DNA from: Pseudarthrobacter sp. NIBRBAC000502772
Lineage (GTDB): Bacteria > Actinomycetota > Actinomycetes > Actinomycetales > Micrococcaceae
DNA: 64,000 bases
Direction: 5' to 3'
Assembly (NCBI RefSeq): GCF_006517235.1
Contig: NZ_CP041188.1
Span: forward strand, 248,001-312,000
In this document: positions 21,046 to 32,442 of the stretch, piece after piece
Layout: each line of letters begins with the position of its first letter
How positions within the stretch are numbered: the first letter of the stretch is position 1
Notes under the pieces: generated by a model
Told to the model about the DNA's origin: nothing
The model's input: only the letters and a program-made list of their open reading frames with translations
The model's database searches: none
Translations under genes and position numbers: made by a program

Positions 21046-22163
21046 AATCCGGCTCCCTTGCCACGGCGGATGAGCCAGACGAAGACGGGCGCACCCACGA
21101 GTGCGGTCATGATGCCGGCCGGGACCTCGCCGGGAAGCAGCACAACGCGGCCGATAATGTCCGCGCCAAGCAAAAGTGCCGGCGCGAGGACCAGGGAGAA
21201 CGGCAGGATCCAGCGGTAGTCGGGGCCGGTGAGTGAGCGGACCGCGTGCGGAATGACCAGGCCAACAAAGCCGATGGGCCCTGCCAATGCAGTCGCGGAG
21301 CCGCACAGCAGCACGATGCCCAAAGCTGTCACTGCACGCGTCAGGCCCACACGCTGGCCGAGGCCGCGGGCGATGTCATCGCCGAGCGCCAGGCTGTTGA
21401 GGATGCGGCCGGTGCCAAGAATAATGAGCGCACCTACGGCCAGGAACGGCAGGCCGGGGAGCACCACGGCCCAGTCGCGGCCGGAGATTCCGCCCACCTG
21501 CCAGAAACGGAAGCGGTCCAGGGTGTCCTGGCTGGAGACGAGGATGACGCTCATCAGGGAATAGAGCCCGGCGCTGAGCGCGGCGCCGGCGAGGGCGAGC
21601 TTGACCGGCGTCGCACCGTCCCTGCCCATCGAAGCGATGAGGTAAACCACGACGGCGGCAGCTCCGGCGCCGATGAATGCGAACCAGATGTAGCCGCTCA
21701 GGGAGGTGACGCCGAAAAGGTAGATGCCAGTGACCACGGCCAGCGCGGCGCCGGCGTTAACACCCATGATGCCCGGATCTGCCAGCGGGTTGCGGGCAAC
21801 GCCCTGCATGGCGGCGCCGGCCAGGCCCAAGGCACCGCCCACGAGGATTCCCAGGACGGTGCGCGGGATGCGCGCGTGGACCACGGCGTGGTCGCCGTTG
21901 GCGGGATCAAACTGCGTGAGGGCCTGCCACACGGTGGCCAGGGAAAGGCCGCGGGCGCCGATGGCCAGGGAAGCGGCGGCTAACAAGGAAAGTACGACGA
22001 CGGCAGCCAGCAGCCAGGCGGCCTGCCTGGTTCTGGCCTTCCCGCCGGCGATAGCCCATCGACCGGCGCGAACGGACACTTGGGGCCCTCGTTGCGACCC
22101 GACCGGGGCCCCAACTGTCCGTTCGCGCTGTCCGGCGGGTGCCGTAGTCGTACTTTCCGTCAT
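21042..22163 (-). CDS. FecCD-family siderophore permease, first subunit
   Basis: The 373-aa protein has the conserved LGLAGAAMQGVARNPLADPG and PIGFVGLVIPHAVRSLTG segments of FecCD permeases. It has a long, polar N-terminus (about 45 aa) before the first TM. That N-terminus is encoded across a large inverted repeat (22066-22128), so the first ~35 residues may be repeat-derived. It forms the membrane channel together with the next gene's product. Confidence 0.92.
   Translation of the reverse strand: MTESTTTAPAGQRERTVGAPVGSQRGPQVSVRAGRWAIAGGKARTRQAAWLLAAVVVLSLLAAASLAIGARGLSLATVWQALTQFDPANGDHAVVHARIPRTVLGILVGGALGLAGAAMQGVARNPLADPGIMGVNAGAALAVVTGIYLFGVTSLSGYIWFAFIGAGAAAVVVYLIASMGRDGATPVKLALAGAALSAGLYSLMSVILVSSQDTLDRFRFWQVGGISGRDWAVVLPGLPFLAVGALIILGTGRILNSLALGDDIARGLGQRVGLTRAVTALGIVLLCGSATALAGPIGFVGLVIPHAVRSLTGPDYRWILPFSLVLAPALLLGADIIGRVVLLPGEVPAGIMTALVGAPVFVWLIRRGKGAGL
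22066..22128. repeat. Large inverted repeat inside the permease N-terminal coding region
   Basis: Arms of 23 bp (22066-22088 and 22106-22128) match with a single mismatch and enclose a 17-bp spacer. The arm starts GCGCGAACGGACACTTGGGG. The core GCGAACGGAC also occurs at 55942-55951 and, inverted, at 59712-59727. It is read through as part of the ORF. Confidence 0.8.
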
Positions 22164-25462: not shown

Positions 25463-26010
25463 GCAGCCGCAGCCACGACGCGATCTTCAGCGCCGCCGGA
25501 CGGCTTTTCGGGGAACGCGGCTACCGCGCCGTCACGGTGCGGGACATAGCCGCCGACGCGGGCGTTTCGGCGGCCCTGGTCATGAAACTCTTCGTCTCCA
25601 AGGAAAAGCTCTATGCCGCCGTCCGGCCCGACGAATCGCAGCTCGCCGAACTTGAGGTCCCGACGTCGGAACTCGGCAGGGCCCTCGTCTTCCGTGTGTT
25701 GATGCGCCGGGAACGCGGAACGCAGGAGCCGTGGGCCATCATCCCGTTCGCCGTGCTGGACTCCCCCGACCCCGAGGCAGCCCGGACGGATGTCCGCGAA
25801 AGGTACCTCGCCGCCATCGCGAGCCTGATCGGGGACACAACACCGGAGCGGCGGTTCGCCTCCACCGTGGTGGCCCTGATGACCGGATTCGGCGAGTCCG
25901 TCCGCACCCTGGGCCTCTTCGACGGCTGGAACTTTGACGAGCTGGTGGGACACTACGGCGCAATCGTCCAGGCCCAGATCGACGCGTGCACGGCTGCCCT
26001 CAATCAATAG
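25459..26010 (+). CDS. TetR-family repressor
   Basis: The 183-aa protein has an N-terminal TetR HTH: IFSAAGRLFGERGYRAVTVR, then DIAADAGVSAALVMKLFVSK with K/Y contacts. The remainder is a variable ligand-binding domain (TetR_C type). It overlaps the MFS gene by 4 bp, so it is co-expressed and likely autoregulates the operon through the paired sites at 23394-23434. The inducer is probably the exporter's substrate. Confidence 0.92.
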   Translation: MSSRSHDAIFSAAGRLFGERGYRAVTVRDIAADAGVSAALVMKLFVSKEKLYAAVRPDESQLAELEVPTSELGRALVFRVLMRRERGTQEPWAIIPFAVLDSPDPEAARTDVRERYLAAIASLIGDTTPERRFASTVVALMTGFGESVRTLGLFDGWNFDELVGHYGAIVQAQIDACTAALNQ

Positions 26011-26073
26011 CAACGCGGGGTCACATATGGCCCTTCCCGGCGGGAATTTTGGGCGTAATGTGACCCCGCGTTG
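26011..26073. terminator. Convergent large hairpin terminator
   Basis: A 16-bp arm, CAACGCGGGGTCACAT (26011-26026), pairs perfectly with 26058-26073. The 31-bp interior contains its own TTCCC/GGGAA stem. It lies between tetR (+) and jetC (-) and can end both transcripts. Confidence 0.8.
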
Positions 26074-26089
26074 GGGTATTGAAGACTGG

Positions 26090-29000
26090 TCAGCGGAGCA
26101 CGATGTCCACGGGGTTCGCCTCGGACCGCCACTGGCCTTCCGCGCCGGGCCTGGGCCGGATCACCGGGGCGGTGAGCACGCCGGAGCGGTTGGTGCGCTT
26201 GTCCCGCAGGATCTCCGTCACCGAGCCCAGGTGCCGGGACAGGTCGATCACGTTCTCCGGAGCGGCCAGCAGCAGCTGGAAACCGAACTCGTGCAGCGCC
26301 TTGATCCCGGCGCCGGCAAACTCCTCCGACGCCAGCACAAACGCCTCGTCCATCATCACGGTGCCGTAAGTGGTGAACCCCTGCTCGGCGATGCCCAGCT
26401 GGTAGCTCAGCGCCGCGGCCATGATGAACGCGGTGAAGCGCTGCCGCTCGCCGCCGGACATGGAGCCGGTGTCGGCGTGCATGTAAACGTCGGTCCGCTT
26501 GCCGCCGCCCTTCCTGCCCGACGCCGGCCCTGTCACCTCACGGTGCTCCTTGCACTGGATAAACAGGTGCCCGCGGACATCCAGCACTTCGGCGCGCCAG
26601 CGCCGGTCCTCGGGGGTGGGCGAGCCGAGCCGCTTTACGAGCGTTTCGAGGGTCTTGTACCGGGCGGTGAGCTCGGCGTCGTCGCCTCCCCCGCTTTCCG
26701 GGCCGGAACCCGGGCCGGATCCGGCGCGGGCGGGTCGCGTGTGCCGGGCCTTCAGCGCGTTCTGGATGGCGTCCTTGAACTGCTTGGCCGTGGCCGGCAG
26801 GGTCTGCTTGATGTCCAGTTCCAGGAAGCTGCCTTCGTGGAAGTTGACCTCCGACAGGATGCCGTTGAGCGGCAGGATGCGGCTGGTGATGGACCGCCGC
26901 TCCTCGTCCAGCAGGTGTAGCAGCGTGCTGAAGGATTCGTGCGTGCGCTGGTTGAAGAACTGCCGGAACTCGGACTCCTGGGCGGGCAGGCCGTCGCTGA
27001 TGATGGCGTGGTAGCGGCCTTCGAACTCCCCGGCCGCACCGATGGAAGTGCCGTGGTCCGCGGAGATCGCGGAGCCCCACTCGCGCACAAAACCCTCGAA
27101 GATCCGGGTCAGCCGCTCGGAGGTTGCCTGACCCCGCGTCTCGGCGGCGTGCAGCTCCCCCAACAGCGCCGTCCGGACGCGGTTGGCCAGGTTGTCCAGC
27201 TCATGCATCTCGCTGACGTCGCCGAAGTCGGTGAAGTACGGTTCCAGCGCTGTCACTGTGGCGTCCGACGGCGGCGCTTGCTCCAGGCGGGCACGCGCGG
27301 CTTCCAGCAGCGAATCGGCGGCGCTCATTTGCCGGTCCAGTGCCTTGTATTCGCTTTGCAGGACTGCTGCGGCTTCGGTGCTGGCCTGGTGTTTCTGGCG
27401 GGCCGTCTCGATGTTGGCCCGCAGCGGTTCCAGGTCGGCCTGGGCCGCGAGGGCATCCTTGAGCCGCTGTTCAATCCGGGTAAGTTCATCGGCGGCGACG
27501 GCAGCGGACACCTGTTCCCAGGGCCGGTGGTCCTCTGCGATCCGGCGGAGGGCATCGAGCTGCCGGCTCATGCCCTGGTGCGACTCTTCACGGCTCTGCG
27601 CCAGCTCGGCGGCCTTGGCGAGTTCCTGCTGCAGGTCCTCCACCTGGGCGGCCACGAGTTCCAGCTTGGCGGCGTTGTCGAACCCGAGCACGTAGTCCTG
27701 GCGGCTCGTGAAACGGTCGTCCTTCTCTACCGTGTGCCGGTTGCGTTTGACCACACCGCCCAGGCTCAGGCCCTTGTCCAGTGTGGCCAGCTCGTTGGGG
27801 TCCTCGACGCACGGGTAGGCGAAATCGAGGGCGATCCGCTCCCGGATCCATTCCCCGGCGTCGGCCACCGCGCCGCTGGCGAGGATGTCCAGCTTGGTGA
27901 GCAGGTCGCCGTCGCGCGCGTCCTCCACAGCGAGGGCGCCGCCCGCGAGCGGCTTGGATACGTCCACCGCGCGCAGGGCGCCGCGTACTTTGTTGTCGTT
28001 CAGGTAGCGGGTCACCGCGGCGAAATGTTCGCCGGGGACCAGCAACGTGGTGGCGAGGTTCCGGAGGGCACGCTCCGCGGCCGGCCGCCAGCGTTCCTCC
28101 CCCTCGGCGAGGTCCATCAGCTCGCCGCCGAACGGCATCCGGTCCTCAGGAACGCCGGTGGCGGCGGCGATGGCCGCACGGTTTTCAATGCTCGACGGCG
28201 GCAGCAGGGACTTGCGCGTCTTCAGTGACAGCAGCTCCTGCTGGGCTGCCGCCAGCTCACGCTTCTTGGTGGCGTGGCCGTCGAAGGCTTCGAAGCGGAG
28301 CTCCTGCAGGGCCTGCGAGTCGTCTTTGAGCTCGGCCGACCTGGCGGCAGCCTGCTCGTGGGCCTGTTCCCAACCGTCAGCGGTCCACTCCAGCTGCAGG
28401 CCGGCGTCGGACAGGGCCTTGCGGGCCGCTTCCTCCACCTGCTCGCGCAGCCGCAGACCCACCTTGGCGTTGTCCAGCGATTGCTCGATCGCGGAGATAG
28501 CGTTGCCGCCCTGGTTGTTGTAATCGGTCTCCAGCTGGCGCAGATCCTTGGCCAGCCCGTCGCGGACCGAGCGTTCCGCGCCCAGCTCCTTGGCTTTCGC
28601 CTGGGCCAGCTCCTTGAACCGGGCCAGCGTTTTCTGGTGCACGGTGACGGCGAGCTGCTGCTTGTACGCTTCGAACTCCTCGCCGGACAGCTCACGGAGC
28701 CGGTTTGCGTCCAGGAGCGACTGCGCGTATTCCTTGTTCAGGCCGGGCACGGGGGCCAGCTGGTCCCGCTGCTGCCGCACGTCCTCCAGCCGCTGCCGGA
28801 TGGACATGAGGTTGCTGAATTCCTCCACCACGTCATCGGCCGCGGCGAGGGTGGCAGGGGCGTCCAGGACCTGGTCGCGGAAGAACGTATTGACGCTGCC
28901 GCCCAGGCCCTTGCCGGCCTGGATCACGCGAAGCAGCGGCAGAGCCTGGTCCGAACTGATGCCGAGGAGGCGGCGGAAACGCTCCGCAAAGGCCTTGTGG

Positions 29001-29569
29001 ACATCGAAGATCTGGGCGTCCGGGAAGATCGTCTCCAGCGCAGCCTTGGTGAAGCGCTTGTCCGCGATGTCCTCGATGGCCGGCAGGTCCAGCGGCTTGC
29101 TGTCGATCACGTAGAAACGCCCAACGCTGGACTCCGCGCCGTTTTTGGGCAGGTCGAACAGTGCGGACACCGTGATCCGGGTGCCCGCGGCGTTATCAAA
29201 CGTCAGGGCGACGGCGGACCAGGTGGCACCGGGGCGCTGGAACGCACTGGCCGAGCCTTCGCCAACGGCCTTGTCGCCCACTTTGCCGCGCATGTAAGTA
29301 AACGTGGTCCTCTTGTCCTCCACAGCGCCGCCGGCACGCTGGGCCGCGGCCTCGTTGGAGCGCGGCCGGGCATCGAACACCCGCAGCATGGCATCAAACA
29401 GCGTGGACTTGCCCACACCCGAGTTGCCCGTCAGCAGGGTTCCTTTCCGGTCCACGTGCATCGTGTGCGCCCCATGGAACGTGCCCCAGTTGACCACCTG
29501 CACCAACGCCAGGCGCATCTGGCCCGGGTTCGTGAGATCGCCCATCGGCAGCATGGTTGCGATGCTCAC
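26090..29569 (-). CDS. jetC: Wadjet/MksB-type SMC-like ATPase (JetC)
   Basis: The 1159-aa protein has Walker [10 protein letters not shown] at residues 48-56. A long central region is rich in Glu/Ala/Leu heptads (coiled coil, broken by a hinge-like domain). The C-terminal ABC signature MSGGERQR starts at about 1037 and Walker B TVMMDEA is at about 1070. This is the SbcC/MukB-like JetC family that entraps DNA with JetA and JetB. It starts at GTG 29569, overlapping the jetB stop (GTGA). It is the last gene of the operon, followed only by a convergent terminator; no JetD follows. Confidence 0.93.
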
Positions 29570-30423
29570 TTGGCTTCCTCCGTTTCGGTGGCCGAGGCTA
29601 CCGCGGCGTCGTCGTCCTCGTCATCCTCGGTTTCGACAGGCTCAACCACCGGGGTGTCGAGCTCTATCAGTGCTTCCGTGCCTGTGGGGTCTGTGGTGGC
29701 TGCTACCAGGGCTTCGATTTGGGCGGGGATGTCGCCGATGTTTTCGAAGGGGAGGGCCAGCGGGAGGGCGTTGGAGATGGTGTAGACGTCATCCAGGCCC
29801 GTGGTGAGGAGCAGCTGGCGGGCCAGGAGCTTGGTGATGGCCCGGGTGACCACGTCCGAATCCCGCAGCGCGTCCTGCTGGCCGGCGGGCTGGTAGTGGG
29901 CCACGAGGTCGGCGATTTCCTCCCGGGTGATGGTGGCATCGGTCTGGGCCGTGACGTGGCGGTCCAAGAGCATCCGCAGGCGGAGCAGCACGATGGTCTC
30001 CACCCGGCTCAGCGCACGCTGTTGGCGCAGGATGCTCGACCGGCTGCTGCCCCCGATGGCCTCCGGATCCACCGGGCGCAGGACGGCGATCTTGCGCTCG
30101 TGGTCCAGCTGCAGGGTCAGGAACAGCTCGGACAGGCGGCTGCGCAGGATGATCTGGTTGTCCAGCAGCGTAGTCCACAGCTTCTCGTCGCGGCCGCCGT
30201 CAACGTACGGGCCTTTGAGCAGCTTGACCAGCGCCTGGCGCACCTTCATCGAGAGGACGCCGGTGTCGCCGGGAAACAGCGCCGCGCCGTCCACAAACGT
30301 GTCCCGGGGCGTGACTCCGGCGACCCTGGTGATTGAGCCTGCCGAAATCCCTTGGATCTCGGGCTCGACCGCCGGTGCGGCCTCCTCAACGGGGGGTGCC
30401 GCCGTCGTAATTTCTTCAGTCAT
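29566..30423 (-). CDS. jetB: DUF4194 protein (JetB/MksE-like)
   Basis: The 285-aa protein contains the DUF4194 core ([56 protein letters not shown]). This is a winged-helix subunit equivalent to MksE/MukE. I chose the ATG at 30423, preceded by AAGGA, rather than the TTG at 30429. The last ~25 residues are acidic (EDDEDDD) and follow PVVEPVET, encoded by a dispersed DNA repeat. It overlaps jetC by 4 bp. Confidence 0.9.
29629..29654. repeat. [15 protein letters not shown] repeat within jetB
   Basis: GGTTTCGACAGGCTCAACCA continues with CCGGGG. The same unit occurs at 59011-59036, with two base differences (T to C, A to G), and as a degenerate copy at 8739-8766. In both genes it is read in the same frame, giving VVEPVET near the protein C-terminus. 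Confidence 0.8.
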
Positions 30424-30425
30424 CG

Positions 30426-31886
30426 TCAATCCTTCTTGAGGGTGACCACCGGCAGGTACGCCGTGCGGGTGGTGCCGTCGATCTGTTCGTAGTCCAGGCC
30501 GTCCCAGGCGTCGCGGTGAAAGGCCGCGCCATCCTGGAGGGCGTGCGAGAGGAGTGCGCGGATGGAGTTGATGTGCTGTTCCTCCGGCGGCAGCTGCCCC
30601 CAGGCCTCGGCGAGGGTGGACGCGCCGGCCACGGCGGCCCGGATGGCGTCGGGACGTGCTTTGCCCGTCCTCGGCGAGCGCACCCGGTCCGAGTCGCTGA
30701 AGGCGATGGGGTCGGCCAGCTTGGGCGGAACGGCGAACTCGTCCGGGTCGTAGAGCTTGACCATGGCCAGCGATTCGAACCCGGCGTTGAACAGCACCGG
30801 ACCGCGGACCAGTCCCGGCCGATCGCGTTCATACGGCAGGGACCTGATGGCCTGCTCGGCCTCGCGCAGGACCTTCCGGAGGCGGACGGACTGGCGGAAG
30901 TCGTCGCTCTGGACGTAGGTGTTGAGGCTTTCGCTGAGCTTGCCGTAGATCCGCTGGATCTGGCTGTGCTGGTGGCGGAGCTCGGCCACCAGGTTCTTGA
31001 GCGTCTCGCGGTCCTCCGGCGAAAGGTCGTCGGCGAACTGCCGGCTGAGGACCTCACCGATGGCCGACCGGAACCGGAGCTGCTGCTGCGGGTCTTCCAG
31101 GAATGCGGTGAAGGAGCGGAAGGTCCTGCCCTCGGGGCTCTGCCGCAGCCGCTTGTCCGCGTCGAGCACCTGCGCCATGGTGGCGCCTTTGCTCAGCGAC
31201 TCCTCGATGATCTGGTTGCGCAGCTCGCCCACCAGTTCCTCGATGCGGTCGCGCATCTTTTTGTAGTCGGCGGGCAGGCTGGCAGCGAGGTCCAGGATGT
31301 TCCCGGCAGCTTCCACCGCTTCGTCGTCGTCCAGCAGGCCGTCAAAGTCGCCTGAGCTGATGTCCTGGATCAGCTGCTGCCGTTCCCCGATCTCGTCCTC
31401 CAGGGATTCCAGCCGGGCACTCTGGTCCGGATTGGTCTCGTTGGCCAGCTTCTCCACGTCGCCCAGGAGGGTGCCCAGCCGGGAACCGTTCAGCGTGGAC
31501 CGCTCGCTGGAAAGGCTGTCCAGGAACGCGAGCACGCGGGCGGCCGGCTCGGTGACCTCGTAAACGATCTGCCCCGACTGGTTGCGGCGGGTCAGGAAAT
31601 GCTTGCGTGTCCACTCATCCGCATAGTTCCTGCCGGACGACGTGCCGATGGCGGCACCACCCGGCCCGGGCTCCTGGCGCCGGAGCTGCTCAAGGAAGGA
31701 GTCGACGTCGGCGTGGAACTCCTCGAGCGGAAGCTGCGGACGGGTGCGGGTAAAGGATGCCTGCAGCACCGCGATCACCCAGGGCGCCGAGCGCGTCAGG
31801 GCCCAGGCGGGTCCCTTTGTGAGGAGTTCGAGGTCCCGGAGCCGGGCACTGATCGCGTCAGCGGATGACCTGGCGGAGCGGGGCAC
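30426..31886 (-). CDS. jetA: DUF3375 protein (JetA/MksF-like kleisin)
   Basis: The 486-aa protein begins at GTG 31886 behind AAGGAGA. The N-terminal part ([36 protein letters not shown]) is characteristic of DUF3375, and a long helical middle (about 150-330) is typical of the kleisin-like subunit. With JetB it bridges the JetC heads. It is the first gene of the jetABC operon; its stop is 2 bp before the jetB ATG. Confidence 0.92.
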
Positions 31887-32037: not shown

Positions 32038-32442
32038 ATGCGTGAAAAAGCTGCACTGATCACCGGCCTGGCGGCTGCGGCTGTCATTCTGGGTGGCGCG
32101 ACAGTGGCGGTCGCCGCGAGCACCGGGACCAGCGGAGATCAGCCCTTGAGCAAGATCGGGGTCAACGTCGACCGGTCAGTGCCGGTGTCCACCGTCCCGG
32201 GGCCCGAGCGGGACGACGATTCCAATCTGGCACCACTTAACACTGCGGACCATGACCAGGCCGCGAACGCCGCATTGGCCAGGGTGGGCCAGGGCAGTGT
32301 CATCGAGGTGGAACGGGAAAACGACGGGAACGTCGCGTACGAGGTTGAAGTCAGGCTGGACAACGGTTCCCAGGTTGAAGTGGGGCTCGGCACCGACTTC
32401 GCGGTCCTGAACCAGGCCGCCCCGGAGTTCGACGACGACTGA
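32038..32442 (+). CDS. Exported PepSY-domain protein
   Basis: The 134-aa protein has an N-terminal signal segment (LITGLAAAAVILGGATVAVA), a linker rich in Asp/Pro, and a PepSY-like domain from about residue 68 (AANAALARVGQGSVIEVERE, then YEVEVRLDNGSQVEV). PepSY domains are often associated with inhibition of secreted peptidases or with cell-envelope functions. A GAGAGGAG RBS precedes the ATG. Confidence 0.82.
   Translation: MREKAALITGLAAAAVILGGATVAVAASTGTSGDQPLSKIGVNVDRSVPVSTVPGPERDDDSNLAPLNTADHDQAANAALARVGQGSVIEVERENDGNVAYEVEVRLDNGSQVEVGLGTDFAVLNQAAPEFDDD

Follow-up and report, generated by a model that had tools for sequence, protein, structure and literature searches.

A jetABC (MksFEB) cluster without jetD, conserved among Micrococcaceae, as a likely nuclease-free SMC complex

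Introduction

Complexes of the Wadjet group, built around a protein related to the structural maintenance of chromosomes (SMC) family, have been described with and without the subunit JetD (MksG). Pseudomonas aeruginosa PA14 has a four-gene mksFEBG operon (PMC10123090), and several members of the group besides MukBEF are without MksG/JetD (PMC7617805). For Paenarthrobacter lasiusi S21, a PADLOC table lists a three-gene JetA-JetB-JetC 'Wadjet' together with a four-gene type I Wadjet (PMC11719660, Table 6); the passages on this listing draw no conclusion from the missing JetD. Here we analysed a jetA-jetB-jetC (mksF-mksE-mksB) cluster of Pseudarthrobacter sp. NIBRBAC000502772, family Micrococcaceae, within a stretch of 64,000 nucleotides (the window; NZ_CP041188.1, positions 248,001 to 312,000), to whose numbering window coordinates refer. 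A preliminary description, made from the letters of the window, had noted that no jetD was visible beside the three genes. It had suggested that jetD was lost or moved, or that another nuclease takes its place. We find a JetD-free lineage conserved across the genus and beyond, and the cluster is likely to encode an SMC complex that does not cut DNA.

Results

The window encodes intact JetA, JetB and JetC

The cluster consists of the following features.

30426..31886, minus strand: jetA / mksF, kleisin-like (DUF3375), 486 aa; Pfam PF11855, 6e-90, 302.8 bits; PADLOC JetA1, 856 bits
29566..30429, minus strand: jetB / mksE, KITE-like (DUF4194), 287 aa; Pfam PF13835, 2e-28, 99.5 bits; PADLOC JetB1, 519 bits
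26090..29569, minus strand: jetC / mksB, SMC-like ATPase, 1159 aa; Pfam AAA_29 and SbcC_Walker_B; PADLOC JetC1, 1164 bits
29402..29428, minus strand: JetC Walker A, GNSGVGKST, residues 48-56; G..GVGKST kept in 61/61 loci of the window's type
26291..26590, minus strand: C-terminal ATPase half of JetC, with signature SGGE and Walker B DEAF, residues 994-1093; Pfam PF13558

Open reading frames (ORFs), Pfam and PADLOC agree that the three genes are intact and overlapping where the preliminary description had placed them, forming a compact unit of 5,797 bp on the minus strand. All three proteins match Pfam families above cut-off, and JetA1, JetB1 and JetC1 are their best PADLOC profiles, each matched over nearly its full length. 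As called, neighbouring genes overlap by 4 bp, with the TTG start of jetB at 30429 overlapping the jetA stop; were jetB to start at the alternative ATG at 30423, the two genes would be 2 bp apart and would not overlap. The GTG start of jetA is preceded by AAGGAG. In single-sequence searches of the PDB, the closest matches were JetA chains for JetA (E 3e-23) and JetC chains for JetC (E 2e-54), and no solved structure was matched by JetB. A JetB family profile gave three PDB matches at E up to 1, all of them JetB but weak (E about 0.1). JetB matched the Pfam MksE model at 3e-5, slightly below cut-off, and its single-sequence fold model had a mean predicted local distance difference test (pLDDT) score of 42, too low for use. 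Like Wadjet type I, the cluster thus has homologues of JetA, JetB and JetC within a single operon, and it also unites SMC-like, kleisin-like and KITE-like subunits, as MksBEF-type complexes do, by sequence families and with a weak link from JetB to solved JetB structures. No MukB model was matched by JetC in Pfam at E up to 0.001, so that the protein lacks the family-model match expected of MukBEF.

The sole JetD detected in the genome ends a second, complete operon

The genome is a single contig of 4.80 Mb. Searches with DUF2220 and DUF3322 both found the same single JetD gene, at 1.67 Mb and 1.39 Mb away from the window cluster, and none adjoining that cluster, which confirms its apparent absence there. 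This JetD gene stands at the end of another, complete jetA-jetB-jetC-jetD operon (locus L002), so that jetD has not moved out of the window cluster, as had been considered. DUF3375 and DUF4194 have two matches each in the genome, one in either operon, and the two JetA proteins share 23% identity over residues 28-345. The second operon occupies 1668-1675 kb (G000 contig 1; 9218-16017 of L002), and its jetD, 441 aa as called, overlaps the last 11 bp of jetC.

JetD is absent from window-type loci across relatives

We next compared relatives that carry a JetA like that of the window (window-type JetA). Among 37 same-genus genomes it occurs in 36, at 86-99% identity (the window's own copy aside), and the sole miss is a 68%-complete assembly. 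JetD_C was found in 13 of the 37 (18 matches), DUF3322 in 12, all within those 13. In 80 family genomes chosen for carrying window-type JetA, JetD_C was found in 22 (24 matches). None of these 18 and 24 JetD_C matches is close to window-type jetA: each is either on a different contig or separated from it by at least about 260 kb. Thus 81 of the 116 genomes with window-type JetA (36 of the genus and 80 chosen from the family) have no JetD match, comprising 23 of the genus and 58 of the 80.

The loci themselves gave the same result. This genome's JetD had no tblastn match in 60 fetched loci (about 19 kb each, 11 genera, chosen for room on the contig), in all of which jetA, jetB and jetC are present and the A-B-C order is kept. 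A profile made from the JetD sequences of other operons detected no JetD in 61 window-type loci. It also detected none in 80 named loci, most of which were taken with 8 kb on either side (six are shorter). As a positive control, it found JetD beside 33 of 41 other jetABC loci, of which 22 had been chosen for having JetD and 11 of the remaining 19 had it. The window cluster therefore lacks the DUF3322/DUF2220 gene that a Wadjet type I operon holds, and MksG/JetD is missing across the lineage (0/61 and 0/80 loci), as in MksBEF-type operons. A recent or local loss of jetD, one option left by the preliminary description, does not agree with these counts, and neither does an assembly fault, given that the genome is a single contig and its relatives are alike. 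Seven other Actinomycetota jetABC loci also have no detectable JetD (L165, L168, L172, L174, L175, L177, L178). They lie elsewhere in the JetC tree, where L168 has as its sister L167, a locus with JetD.

The cluster is an old, core and selected gene set of Arthrobacter sensu lato

Window-type JetA occurs in 10 other genera of the family, and orthologues at 98-99% identity are found in Pseudarthrobacter and Arthrobacter records. In a sample of 395 family genomes, about 198 have a strong JetA match (E below 1e-90, by count of the table) and all 77 same-genus genomes among those listed carry window-type JetA; 158 have no match, and the 20 of these that are listed all belong to other genera. Outside the family, the best JetA identity is about 30-32%, and in a phylum sample any JetA match was seen in 11 of 394 genomes beyond two of the window's genus. 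In the JetC tree, window-type sequences form one clade with a long stem and a support of 100 in the Shimodaira–Hasegawa-like approximate likelihood ratio test (SH-aLRT). This tree includes 29 of the 61 window-type rows and excludes L152 (partial JetC) and L176 (JetC not found). The clade was recovered again under a mixture model with 47 rows, where L142, L166 and L182 were also excluded. Both trees are unrooted and do not tell loss of JetD from its original absence in the clade. A single origin of all JetD-less loci was rejected under LG+G4 (p 2e-6), but under the mixture model long branches join, and we put no number on the losses.

The cluster is under purifying selection: in six same-genus comparisons the ratio of nonsynonymous to synonymous substitution rates (dN/dS) was 0.05-0.10 for jetA, 0.14-0.22 for jetB and 0.06-0.12 for jetC. 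The ATPase motifs are intact, with the catalytic Glu of Walker B present in 60/61 loci, the exception being a truncated jetC (L095). Canonical SMC, marked by the SMC hinge, coexists with the cluster in 38/38 genomes examined. In summary, the JetABC cluster has a long history in Micrococcaceae and belongs to the core genes of Arthrobacter sensu lato.

Several candidate marks of JetD loss were considered and rejected. The ABC signature reads SGGE in 60/61 window-type and 7/7 other JetD-less JetCs, and SGGQ in 30/32 JetD-bearing JetCs; L167, however, has both JetD and SGGE, and the letters track clades. The IFDR motif at the JetB N-terminus, taken from a review as a mark of the JetD interface, was not seen by eye in this genome's JetD-bearing JetB either, and another JetB motif, LF.GD.G, is present both with and without JetD. 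Loss of a JetD-binding half of JetA was likewise discarded, as single-sequence PDB matches of the window type and of the JetD-bearing paralogue both end within residues 280-331.

Irregular copies and placements of jetA were also noted. Window-type jetA was found, in searches with jetA alone, on the Arthrobacter plasmid records NZ_AP024648.1 (1.35 Mb, 86.6% identity) and NZ_CP012477.1 (0.75 Mb, 44.7%). Broken, short jetA-like fragments lie about 3.3 kb from an intact window-type jetA in two genomes (G188 contig 1 near 251 kb, and G216 near 260.5 kb), perhaps as remnants of a tandem copy.

Chromosomal position and neighbours

Measured from dnaA, which we took to mark the origin, window-type jetA lies at a median distance of 0.11 of the half-chromosome. 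The 38 genomes compared belong to 7 genera and were selected because they have a chromosome-sized contig. The distance is under 0.2 in 31 of the 38 and 0.38 at most, and the side of the origin varies by genus. Of the 7 genomes in which the JetD operon could be placed, four have it at 0.50-0.58 and the three of one genus (g45) have it at 0.15-0.18; as the latter are also near the origin, distance alone fails to separate the two systems.

Clustering of the ORFs in the 61 loci showed that, outside jetABC, any one gene is common to at most 5 of 11 genera. The clusters that recur in at least 3 genera are each close to a jetABC end in no more than 3 loci. A linked substitute nuclease is therefore unsupported. 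One of these recurrent clusters, a predicted nuclease-helicase (about 1,200 aa, RNase_H_2 with AAA_11/AAA_12), lies upstream of jetA in only 6/60 loci, from 4 other genera and never the window's own (L127, L131, L135, L137, L141, L142).

Flanks of the window cluster

One further feature lies beside the cluster in the window.

26010..26074, no strand assigned: 65-bp palindrome with 15-bp perfect arms, a possible bidirectional terminator and member of a dispersed repeat family; covariance-model matches elsewhere

The palindrome stands between the convergent jetC and tetR genes, about 15 bp past jetC, and reads CAACGCGGGGTCA ... TGACCCCGCGTTG, with compensating changes in the arms seen by eye. 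The convergent terminator proposed earlier at this place is thus borne out as a palindrome, less so as a terminator: the terminator scan made no call at 26010-26074, there is no T tract, and the element is dispersed. Good copies occur in 18 genus loci, of which one (L207) came from a covariance-model search; they stand either directly behind jetC or some 115 bp ahead of jetA. At first sight the palindrome appeared specific to jetABC ends (18/19 good copies, loose matches removed by eye). We make no claim to this specificity, as the covariance model built from the same 19 good copies found diverged copies elsewhere; further copies, some weaker, lie away from jet ends, including a weaker one at 22065-22129 of the window. 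The palindrome appears to belong to a family of palindromic repeats dispersed in Arthrobacter.

Upstream of jetA, the PepSY gene of the preliminary description (32038-32442) is there as a weak match (23.5 bits, slightly below the cut-off of 24), and, being divergent from jetA, it lies outside the jet operon. The surroundings further include an MFS transporter, a TetR gene and an acyl-CoA dehydrogenase, other neighbours being metabolic by eye. The TetR and PepSY neighbours had no PADLOC match, and the remaining neighbours were only partly scanned.

Discussion

Of the possibilities raised from the letters, a non-cutting, condensin-like MksFEB is the best reading of this JetD-less jetABC. Judged from sequence comparison, the cluster is likely a nuclease-free MksFEB (JetABC) SMC complex that serves as an accessory chromosomal condensin, and an accessory condensin fits better than defence because the gene set is core, selected, mostly origin-proximal and without a nuclease. 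By homology, JetC would dimerise to form the ATP-driven motor, JetA would act as the ring-closing kleisin, and JetB would be the KITE subunit; dimers of JetC with JetA and JetB would entrap DNA and extrude loops. Assembly of this complex, loop extrusion and a chromosomal target are what we infer. JetD is the subunit that makes Wadjet a cutter, and without it the complex would fold or tether DNA rather than cut it. The accessory condensin would then act on the chromosome beside canonical SMC, and in this genome the cutting of plasmids would fall to the other operon, jetABCD at 1.67 Mb.

Several observations weigh against an accessory condensin. The strong JetA match in about 198 of the 395 family genomes is not universal, and some copies look damaged, with a truncated jetC in G026 (L095) and a jetA that has a stop or is partial or split in G391, G426 and G030. 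In L134 (G265) a 5.35-kb block separates jetA from jetB; most of its genes are encoded on the other strand, and by eye they look metabolic (a GntR regulator, dehydrogenases, a dehydratase). Proximity to the origin is weak evidence, coming from 7 genera, reaching 0.38 in one of them and being common to the g45 JetD operons. Neighbours and origin side differ among genera, which, together with the two plasmid records, indicates that the locus has moved. Finally, the related MksBEFG of Corynebacterium glutamicum acts on plasmids and not on the chromosome (PMC7083940).

An alternative is that JetABC is still directed against plasmids or phages and works without cutting, by binding or compacting foreign circles and so silencing or mis-segregating them. 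PADLOC scores the cluster as JetA1/B1/C1, in keeping with this, and yet a review states that plasmid restriction in Bacillus subtilis needed all four subunits. A locus that is core in its genus and mostly origin-proximal, with TetR and PepSY neighbours that PADLOC does not recognise and others, of which some were scanned, that look metabolic by eye, argues against non-cutting defence as well, and we consider this alternative unlikely. Cutting could instead be supplied from elsewhere, by the JetD of the second operon acting in trans or by an unrelated nuclease. One JetD is indeed present in this genome, and the nuclease-helicase beside jetA in four other genera would suit a nuclease partner. 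However, the 81 genomes that carry the cluster's JetA and have no JetD match argue against JetD in trans, as does the low identity between the JetAs of the two operons, and among the genes next door none is common to over 5 of the 11 genera; unlinked nucleases were outside this search. On balance, a nuclease supplied from elsewhere is quite improbable.

That the cluster is a drifting remnant of a defence operon whose effector was lost could account for the few damaged copies, but it is contradicted by the low dN/dS, by the conservation of the motifs and by the presence of the cluster in nearly all genomes of the genus, and we regard it as very doubtful. Least credible of all is an assembly or sampling artefact that conceals jetD, which nothing was found to favour and which is refuted by the single-contig genome and by the uniform absence in the 61 and 80 loci.

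On a broader reading, a defence-type SMC complex may have been domesticated in Micrococcaceae. The JetD-free clade would then be a second condensin devoted to the chromosome, which became fixed in Arthrobacter and was kept near the origin in most cases; our confidence in this broader proposal is evenly balanced. Were it true, genuine Wadjet would come and go in the same genomes that hold a fixed JetD-free condensin, and an actinobacterial MksBEF would work on the chromosome, contrasting with MksBEFG of C. glutamicum. More widely, this bears on how SMC complexes switch between defence and chromosome maintenance. Both forms occur together in one genome, and no JetD match was found in 81 of the 116 relatives examined that carry the JetD-free form, so that the two roles should be separable in these soil bacteria by deletions of single operons. 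In addition, 'Wadjet' calls made from JetA, JetB and JetC alone may over-count anti-plasmid systems in Micrococcaceae.

Among the papers listed, judging by titles or the start of abstracts, we found no account of a JetD-less Micrococcaceae clade, though the clade may already lie within the tree and operon list in the supplement of PMC7617805. JetD-less members of the Wadjet group are already known, and the window clade is an additional, well-documented one. In its A-B-C order, domain families and overlapping genes, the window cluster agrees with Wadjet type I (JetABCD), with Corynebacterium MksBEFG and with the second operon of its own genome. It differs from Wadjet type I in the absence of JetD, in forming a separate clade, and in a JetA identity of only 21-33% to second copies in the same family. 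The JetA-JetB-JetC of P. lasiusi S21 shows the same pairing with a four-gene system and a similar span (5,844 bp vs 5,797 bp in the window), and is probably an orthologue, judged from the listing and not from sequence. Within the Wadjet group, MukBEF of Escherichia coli is a chromosomal condensin that has no JetD (PMC7617805), the role proposed here for the window cluster, whose JetC is unlike MukB in being unmatched by the Pfam MukB model. MksBEF of P. aeruginosa PAO1 likewise has SMC-like, kleisin and KITE subunits, is without MksG/JetD and stands beside SMC-ScpAB, like the window cluster (PMC10586767, PMC7485682); it belongs to another phylum and its chromosomal role has been tested, and the likeness is one of gene content rather than of compared sequences.

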